A stretch of DNA of 64,000 nt from Alphaproteobacteria bacterium (GTDB taxonomy: Bacteria > Pseudomonadota > Alphaproteobacteria > Micavibrionales > Micavibrionaceae), in contig JAJFGS010000013.1 of assembly GCA_021775995.1 (NCBI GenBank), positions 620,001-684,000 on the forward strand. The letters are read 5' to 3'. Under the pieces are notes generated by a model. The model saw nothing but the letters and a program-made list of their open reading frames with translations. It ran no database searches and was not told the DNA's origin. Each line of letters starts with the position of its first letter. Positions within the stretch are counted from its first letter, which is position 1. Positions 22,112-22,778 of the stretch are shown here, piece by piece. The translations under genes and the position numbers were made by a program.

Positions 22112-22778
22112 ATTTGACCAGCAGTTTAAAGCACCCGTTTGCGGCATAGATGAAGTTGGGCGCGGCCCTTTATGCGGTCCCGTTACATCCGCTTGCGTAC
22201 ATATCCCTGCCGAAAATCTGGATAATCCCCTCTGGCAAGAAATCACAGACAGCAAGAAAATATCCGCCATAAAACGTGAAAAATTATTTGAACCAATAAA
22301 GGAGCTTTGCTTTTTCGGCATAGCCGAAGCCTCCGCGCAGGAAATTGACCAACTCAATATCCATCACGCTACCCTGCTGGCCATGAAACGTGCCTACCAA
22401 AACCTCTTGTCATTCCGACGGAGCGAAGCGATTGGAGGAATCTTATCTTTTGATGATTACTTAATATCCCTCGGCTTCGCTCGGGATGACGTGACAGCTC
22501 TTATTGATGGTAAATTTGCTCCTGATATCCCCTGTTCTACTCAAACAGTCATTAAAGGGGATAGCCTATCCCTTTCCATCGGTGCGGCCTCTATTATCGC
22601 AAAAGTAACCCGTGATCGCCTGATGACGAAGCTTCATCATGACTACCCCCATTATGCATGGGATAGGAATGCAGGCTATGGCACCAAAGCCCATATGGAA
22701 GGGCTGGAAAGCCACGGTCTGACTCCCTTCCACAGGCTTTCCTTCGCTCCCTGCGCGGCTTTAAAGCAGAAAGCTTAA
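22104..22778 (+). CDS. rnhB: Ribonuclease HII with in-frame palindrome insertion
   Basis: 224 residues. RNase HII removes ribonucleotides misincorporated in DNA. Active-site acids are visible at Asp16/Glu17 ([10 protein letters not shown]), Asp135 (ALIDG) and the downstream [10 protein letters not shown] segment. Typical RNase HII is about 200 residues. The excess is explained by residues about 102-129, encoded by an 82-bp palindromic repeat (22409-22490) that otherwise occurs between genes, such as at 49845-49927. The insertion keeps the frame and lies in the loop just before the strand carrying Asp135, where many homologues have a short variable segment. The gene therefore looks functional. 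It overlaps the end of pepN by 8 nt. Confidence 0.95.
22409..22490. repeat. Intergenic-type palindrome embedded in rnhB
   Basis: Begins GTCATTCCGACGGAGCGAAG and its far end, read on the other strand, begins GTCATCCCGAGCGAAGCCGA. The element at 49845-49927 has the same two arm types in the opposite order, and lies between ruvB and ruvA. Here it is inside a coding frame and contributes about 28 residues. Confidence 0.85.

Follow-up and report, generated by a model that had tools for sequence, protein, structure and literature searches.

A CGTC-type palindromic repeat dimer in frame within rnhB, and apparently recurrent use of the same ribonuclease HII loop across a bacterial order

Introduction

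REPINs consist of two inverted palindromic units that form one larger hairpin; their units carry a GTAG tag, and they are mobilised by RAYT transposases. The CGTC-tagged REPs have an unpaired CGTC or TGTC tag, a stem that begins with AT and a short tail, and are arranged as HH dimers with the tags outward (Di Nocera, De Gregorio and Rocco, 2013; PMC3733652). That paper describes the families CGTC-1 to CGTC-4 as having a stem of 8–9 bp, a loop of 4–5 nt and a tail that is mostly CCA, lists CGTC, TGTC and CCTC as tag variants of the superfamily, and reports the CGTC-1 family from Micavibrio aeruginosavorus (PMC3733652). The repeats are mostly intergenic and sometimes in frame within genes, many of them in replication and repair genes; in-gene dimers or groups encode mostly 20–30 residues, and the same site of recB is hit in two Xanthomonas species (PMC3733652). 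In the same paper no transposase is found associated with these repeats, the Rickettsia palindromic elements RPE-4 and RPE-6 are equated with CGTC repeats, and RPE-1 is described as longer (PMC3733652). The gene for RNase HII, rnhB, is absent from the main text (PMC3733652), and among the results listed in searches of the open literature there was no report of recurrence at one RnhB loop.

The element described here lies in rnhB within a window of 64,000 nucleotides, the whole stretch of DNA that was analysed, from a genome of 2.0 Mb (G000 in what follows). Like the CGTC-tagged REPs, it is a dimer with YGTC tags that face outward, and its kind is mostly intergenic. It differs in its units, which have a 5-bp stem, an internal loop and a short inner stem in place of the 8–9 bp stem with a 4–5 nt loop, and in a 3-nt unpaired tail of CTT or ATT in place of CCA. 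The tag agrees with that of the superfamily; a stem of the published length (8 bp, with a 4-nt loop) is found in a unit from another genome, G028, and not in those of G000. Judged by its sequence and predicted folding, the rnhB element is best regarded as a bulged-stem relative of the CGTC-tagged REP superfamily, strict membership being precluded by the stem. With REPINs it shares the two inverted palindromic units in one larger hairpin, but its tag is YGTC rather than GTAG and no element was found within 1.5 kb of the one Y1-like gene of the genome; the tag and the low score of that gene's product, given below, place it outside the REPIN/RAYT system.

Like the Rickettsia palindromic elements (RPE-4, RPE-6 and RPE-1) the rnhB dimer lies within a protein gene, although the hosts differ. 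An earlier note on this DNA had drawn the same comparison, which is apt by virtue of the published equation of RPE-4 and RPE-6 with CGTC repeats (PMC3733652). In-gene CGTC repeats are thus already on record; the feature that appears to be new is that a single loop has been used again and again, in rnhB across several genera as against recB in two Xanthomonas species (PMC3733652).

The element and its host protein

The features of the window are collected in Table 1. The earlier note had placed a palindrome at 22409–22490 of rnhB; the palindrome is there, but its limits are set by the tag bases. Among 143 distinct dimers with flanks, taken from the fetched loci, the base 5' of GTCAT is T in 99 and C in 44, and the base 3' of ATGAC is A in 97, G in 45 and C in 1 (A or G in 142 of the 143); all GTCAT words at the same loci, element copies included, are preceded by C in 393 cases, T in 375, G in 269 and A in 177. 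The bias at the dimer edges indicates that the element ends in YGTC and GACR, so that the rnhB copy extends over 22408–22491. The tag is unpaired in five of six folded units, among them both units of the rnhB dimer, and the tags lie outside in this dimer and in all 143 counted dimers, an arrangement that the search pattern itself selects. As RNA, positions 22405–22496 fold with −36.3 kcal/mol (z −4.43), and none of 200 shuffles folds equally well. A repeat search of the whole window, at the settings used, did not list the rnhB palindrome.

Table 1. Coordinates of the rnhB gene, its element and related dimers in the window
Feature	Position	Strand	Basis and remarks
rnhB, ribonuclease HII, 224 aa	22104..22778	+	NF000595 217.4 bits (cut-off 167); PF01351 129.8 bits
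YGTC-tagged palindromic REP-like dimer, tags outward	22408..22491	+	84 bp = 28 codons, about residues 102–129 of RnhB; tag bases, own-genome copies
Left unit of rnhB dimer	22408..22444	+	TGTC tag, unpaired; hairpin with a bulge; CTT tail; unit fold
Spacer separating the two units of rnhB dimer	22445..22462	.	Sequence
Right unit of rnhB dimer, inverted	22463..22491	-	Outer-end tag CGTC, 5-bp stem ATCCC/GGGAT with small inner hairpin, tail ATT; unit fold
Intergenic copy of rnhB dimer, opposite orientation, with tag bases	49844..49928	-	Own-genome search, strict pattern
Second window dimer, sibling GTCATTGCGAG subfamily, with tag bases	58359..58434	.	Strict pattern (C5:678360-678433), context

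The host protein is a recognisable RNase HII. Residues D16, E17, D135 and D153, which we take to be the four catalytic acidic residues of the enzyme, are invariant columns in an alignment of 34 RnhB rows. The AlphaFold model (pLDDT 93.2) has as its best PDB match 7uwe_C (E 2.1e-20, TM 0.89 by target), E. coli RNase HII in a transcription-coupled repair complex, and it is this fold, together with the four acidic residues, that places the protein in the family. Counted by the simple Nei–Gojobori method, rnhB has a dN of 0.10 and a dS of about 2.1 against its relative G007, and a dN of 0.13 against G009 and 0.21 against G006 with dS saturated in both; since dN lies far below dS, the gene is by this measure under strong purifying selection. 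On the upstream side is a frame that resembles aminopeptidase N, a name given by eye (the counterpart in genome G059 matches TIGR02414). The gene on the downstream side, for a ccrM-like methyltransferase, scores 612.8 bits with NF050803, short of the cut-off of 830.

In the model the insert occupies the stretch between helix 86–102 and strand 131–135, directly before Asp135 as the earlier note had it. The description of this stretch as a surface loop agrees with the predicted topology, from which the surface position would follow. Two strands (105–107 and 113–115) and a helix (116–122) are predicted within the insert, with block pLDDT values of 81, 85 and 96. The insert is free of stop codons in the rnhB frame, and the earlier claim that the frame is kept and 28 residues are encoded stands. 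The loop did not grow by 28 residues, however: it has 33 against 13 in G007 and G009, which on the tree are its closest two relatives without an insert, and as it is only about 20 residues longer, some eight loop residues are missing compared with these relatives.

Dispersed copies of the element

A similarity search of the 2.0-Mb genome with the rnhB palindrome gave 19 places at E ≤ 1, of which the weakest four or five are probably chance; the best match other than the palindrome itself has an E of 1.1e-16. The intergenic stretch 49845–49927, noted earlier as its inverted counterpart, does match it in that orientation (80% identity, E 1.3e-12). A strict full-dimer pattern finds 24 copies in G000, and its hits in the 13 other genomes range from 2 to 60 per genome; the reversed pattern finds none in all 14. 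These matches, and the 24 copies against a control of zero, confirm that the rnhB palindrome is a dispersed genomic repeat and not a product of chance. An ordinary lengthening of a coding loop that happened to be palindromic could draw on the fact that this loop varies from 8 to 21 residues in relatives without an evident palindrome (genomes G011, G047, G092 and G132 included), yet the close genomic copies, the absence of control matches and the tag bases leave such a coincidence hardly credible. Neither of the two outcomes that the earlier note had set against its own reading was obtained: the nearest relatives have no insert, and further genomic copies exist.

Contexts were examined for dimers of six genomes (24 of 24 in G000, 12 of 12 in G060, 27 of 32 in G059, 16 of 16 in G076, 11 of 11 in G028 and 35 of 39 in G116), five of which were chosen because they have the rnhB insert, so that in-gene fractions are biased; the second dimer of the window was counted apart. 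In G000, rnhB is the only recognised gene with a dimer inside. Dimers lie within three recognised genes of G059 (rnhB, leuS and pepN), two of G076 (rnhB and uvrA) and nine of G116 (rnhB, mnmC, pdxT, dxs, uvrA, panC, argS, purL and pdhC; argS and purL score below their family cut-offs, the fetched stretches being partial). None does in G060, and none by the strict pattern in G028, whose rnhB insert is of the GTCATTCCCGCG type. Other frames that span dimers, for example upstream of tolB (L270) or in L257, which has no Pfam match, were judged spurious or doubtful by eye and set aside.

Recurrence at one loop within the order

RnhB was found in all ten genomes of the genus. Seven of the nine other members have no insert (G001, G002, G003, G004, G007, G008 and G009); the insert of G005 is a different palindrome, CCCTCACCC...GGGTGAGGG, and that of G006 is diverged. 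The nearest relatives are free of the insert, and the gene keeps its acidic residues. Across the order there is an RnhB match in 127 of 142 genomes, 122 of them full length, and all 14 with a span of at least 576 nt were read together with controls, a threshold below which an insert that adds just a few residues to the normal length would go unnoticed. Ten of the 122 full-length proteins have an insert in this one loop. Seven are CGTC-type dimers (G000, G028, G059, G076, G096, G116 and G115, the last with an altered right end), G103 has a single unit, and the different palindrome of G005 and the diverged insert of G006 complete the ten. The other four of the 14 (G011, G047, G092 and G132) have longer loops with no element visible by eye. 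An eleventh palindromic insert, of unrelated type, comes from Alphaproteobacteria bacterium WBA_2_308 (L136). Of 80 loci of named RnhB records 73 were measurable, and two of these gave a loop of more than 34 residues, L136 and, through a parsing error, L163. The closest named RnhB among the matches listed is that of Micavibrio sp. UWMA-0310, 60% identical to the G007 query, so that the order is probably Micavibrionales.

Each of the seven CGTC-type dimers and the inserts of G005 and L136 folds better than 200 of 200 single-base shuffles. Folding of the single unit of G103 is non-significant (35 of 200 shuffles as good), and the same test on the loop of G047, the sole longer insert-free loop that was folded, gave 44 of 200. 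The G006 insert folds weakly (z −1.24, 18 of 200 shuffles as good) and aligns with the best of ten reference elements at a score of 46, the maximum in 500 single-base shuffles being 39; its sequence makes it a probable decayed copy.

Close relatives differ in the state of the loop. The insert is present in G059 and absent from G060, present in G076 and absent from G075 and G017, present in G115 and G116 and absent from G117 and G019, and present in G096 and G103 and absent from G097. When the loop columns were left out of a tree of 50 RnhBs, the 11 rows with an insert called for 11 changes, of which well-supported branches force at least eight, and the insert label showed no more clustering than in shuffles (mean 10.1; 500 of 500 as low). 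The exact number of gains is soft: RnhB is a short protein, the tree leaves 11 of its 46 inner branches open, and a single label covers CGTC elements, unrelated palindromes and the doubtful insert of G006. The changes could in principle include losses. The element sequences differ, and the inserts of the order occur in two reading frames and both orientations, which argues for gains rather than losses. From these sequences, the palindromes of this loop were apparently gained separately in different species.

One explanation of such recurrence is that the DNA of this loop is a preferred target, the pattern being one of insertion bias. This would fit with a single loop having undergone at least eight forced changes in a protein that is some 200 residues long, and with inserts whose starts lie no more than a few codons from a common helix end. 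The site has, however, received three unrelated types of palindrome (CGTC-type, the CCCTCACCC type of G005 and that of L136) in two reading frames, repeated filling is also seen in UvrA and LeuS loops, and no duplication beyond the tag base accompanies the inserts, all of which renders target preference unlikely.

Outside the order, a class-wide search found RnhB in 377 of 387 genomes, five of them from the order. Spans were seen for 230 of the 372 matched genomes outside it, 80 of them among the weaker matches, and the largest is 600 nt (G321); the inserted RnhBs of the order span 603–660 nt in nine of ten cases and 576 nt in G103. The G321 protein has a longer loop with no palindrome by eye. 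Of the 80 weaker class matches, three were partial or fragmented (G294, G310 and G155), and the RnhB of G155 (L302) has a GC-rich in-frame insert of a non-CGTC kind at a different position in the protein. Among the spans seen, recurrence in rnhB therefore seems linked to this order.

Loops in UvrA and LeuS

Two other proteins also have recurrently filled loops. In UvrA (G000 numbering) tagged dimers occupy a loop near residue 450 in G105, G035, G121, G010, G009 and G076 and another near residue 610 in G013, G103 and G116, and in LeuS they lie at site 247 in G059 and G105 and at site 737 in G119; in G105 the ends of the LeuS insert are tagged, but its arm match is below the threshold. Both proteins were picked after hits had been seen, and reading was confined to span outliers with a few controls. 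Lengthenings of LeuS in G083, G084, G097 and G100 and of UvrA in G074 were not counted as REPs, and an arm match in G079 UvrA was discarded as ordinary coding sequence.

With ten inserts in RnhB (about 190 profile residues), nine read in UvrA (924) and three read in LeuS (843), RnhB has the most per residue of the three genes compared, an excess that is not pressed here because the genes were chosen after the hits and the span outliers alone were read. It would nevertheless suit the idea that inserts in repair enzymes such as RnhB and UvrA are kept for an altered activity, for example a raised mutation rate or a binding module, as was raised for repair genes in the 2013 paper (PMC3733652), and the G000 insert is indeed predicted to be ordered. 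The insert of L136, on the other hand, is predicted to be poorly ordered (block means 58 and 67), and the dimers of G116 also lie in mnmC, pdxT, dxs, panC, argS, purL and pdhC. On balance, adaptive capture of this kind seems improbable. It is equally doubtful that the loop before Asp135 and the matching loops of UvrA are true capture sites that recruit unrelated palindromes time after time and keep them because they modify repair enzymes, with ribonucleotide and excision repair varying between species as a result.

Route of insertion and probable history

Cut-and-paste transposition normally leaves a target-site duplication. Comparison of the flanks of 143 dimers revealed no duplication beyond the tag base, with identities of at least four bases in two of the 143 against 0.75 expected from permuted flanks, which argues against an ordinary cut-and-paste transposase. 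G000 has one Y1_Tnp-like gene, in single copy (L230, C11:39799-40119), which is found in nine of the ten genus members and has no repeat unit within 1.5 kb in G000. A 107-aa piece of its product reaches 29.9 bits, the cut-off being 80, and the protein reads QIH where HUH is expected, with Gln in place of the first His at what is presumably the motif position; perhaps, to go by its sequence, it is a domesticated RAYT relative. A Y1_Tnp match is absent from eight of the 16 genomes searched, including the element-rich G115 (40 dimers) and G116 (39). With element-rich genomes lacking a match and no unit nearby, this single protein was rejected as a sufficient mover. That the element is mobile is suggested by its copies and by the empty sites in relatives.

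The history that we consider highly probable is one of frequent dimer insertion with survival in a few tolerant loops, the rnhB element having been acquired after the split from the closest relatives. A CGTC/TGTC-tagged REP-like dimer would have entered rnhB after the lineage had separated from its closest sampled relatives, and the 84 bp would now be read in frame as an extra segment between helix 86–102 and the Asp135 strand. Such dimers would insert often and widely and would survive within genes only where a loop takes some 20–30 extra residues, so that a few loops (a single one each in RnhB and LeuS, two in UvrA) come to be refilled in different species. The route of entry would leave no target-site duplication; it may have involved a single-strand (HUH-type) transposase that many hosts have since lost, or else repair or recombination. 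A clean insertion is argued against by the growth of the loop by about 20 residues rather than 28, which implies an unclean addition or later loss of residues. Likewise, the tag-to-tag lengths of 61, 64 and 67 bp in G059, G115 and G076 are not multiples of three, and further flanking changes would be needed to keep the frame. Recurrence could also reflect target preference or selection, which are inseparable from tolerance here.

The filling of the same enzyme loop by different palindromes in different species amounts to a naturally replicated experiment, in which the question raised in 2013, why REPs sit in repair genes, becomes testable. The recurrence suggests how junk-like DNA may become protein without destroying an enzyme. 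It also carries a warning for annotation, as extra segments of 20–30 residues in conserved proteins, with stretches such as CHPERSEG or SSRAKSRD, may be in-frame repeat DNA.

Other palindromes and dimers

The second dimer of the window (58359–58434) belongs to the GTCATTGCGAG...CTCGCAATGAC subfamily, and both subfamilies coexist in G000. It is not crossed by any frame of at least 50 codons that has 25 to each side of it. Another long palindrome, of a different sequence type with GTCAT...ATGAC ends, lies at 48407–48503 of the window (arms 48430–48448 and 48459–48477).

Elsewhere in G000, four near-identical 85-bp dimers in two orientations lie within 3.3 kb at C3:178703-182035 (L092 1204-2762, L010 1501-1585), and the C-terminal residues and stop codons of MurJ (L009 1502-1580) and of TrpC (L007 1502-1567) each appear to come from a dimer. 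A small conserved protein of the form STGPK...RS..NAYKHG (with variants), two pieces of which gave no NCBIfam match, directly precedes dimers in three genomes (L090, L234 and L100). The G059 gene for aminopeptidase N, which immediately precedes rnhB, has an in-frame dimer of its own (L129 1064-1136), so that two neighbouring genes are affected.
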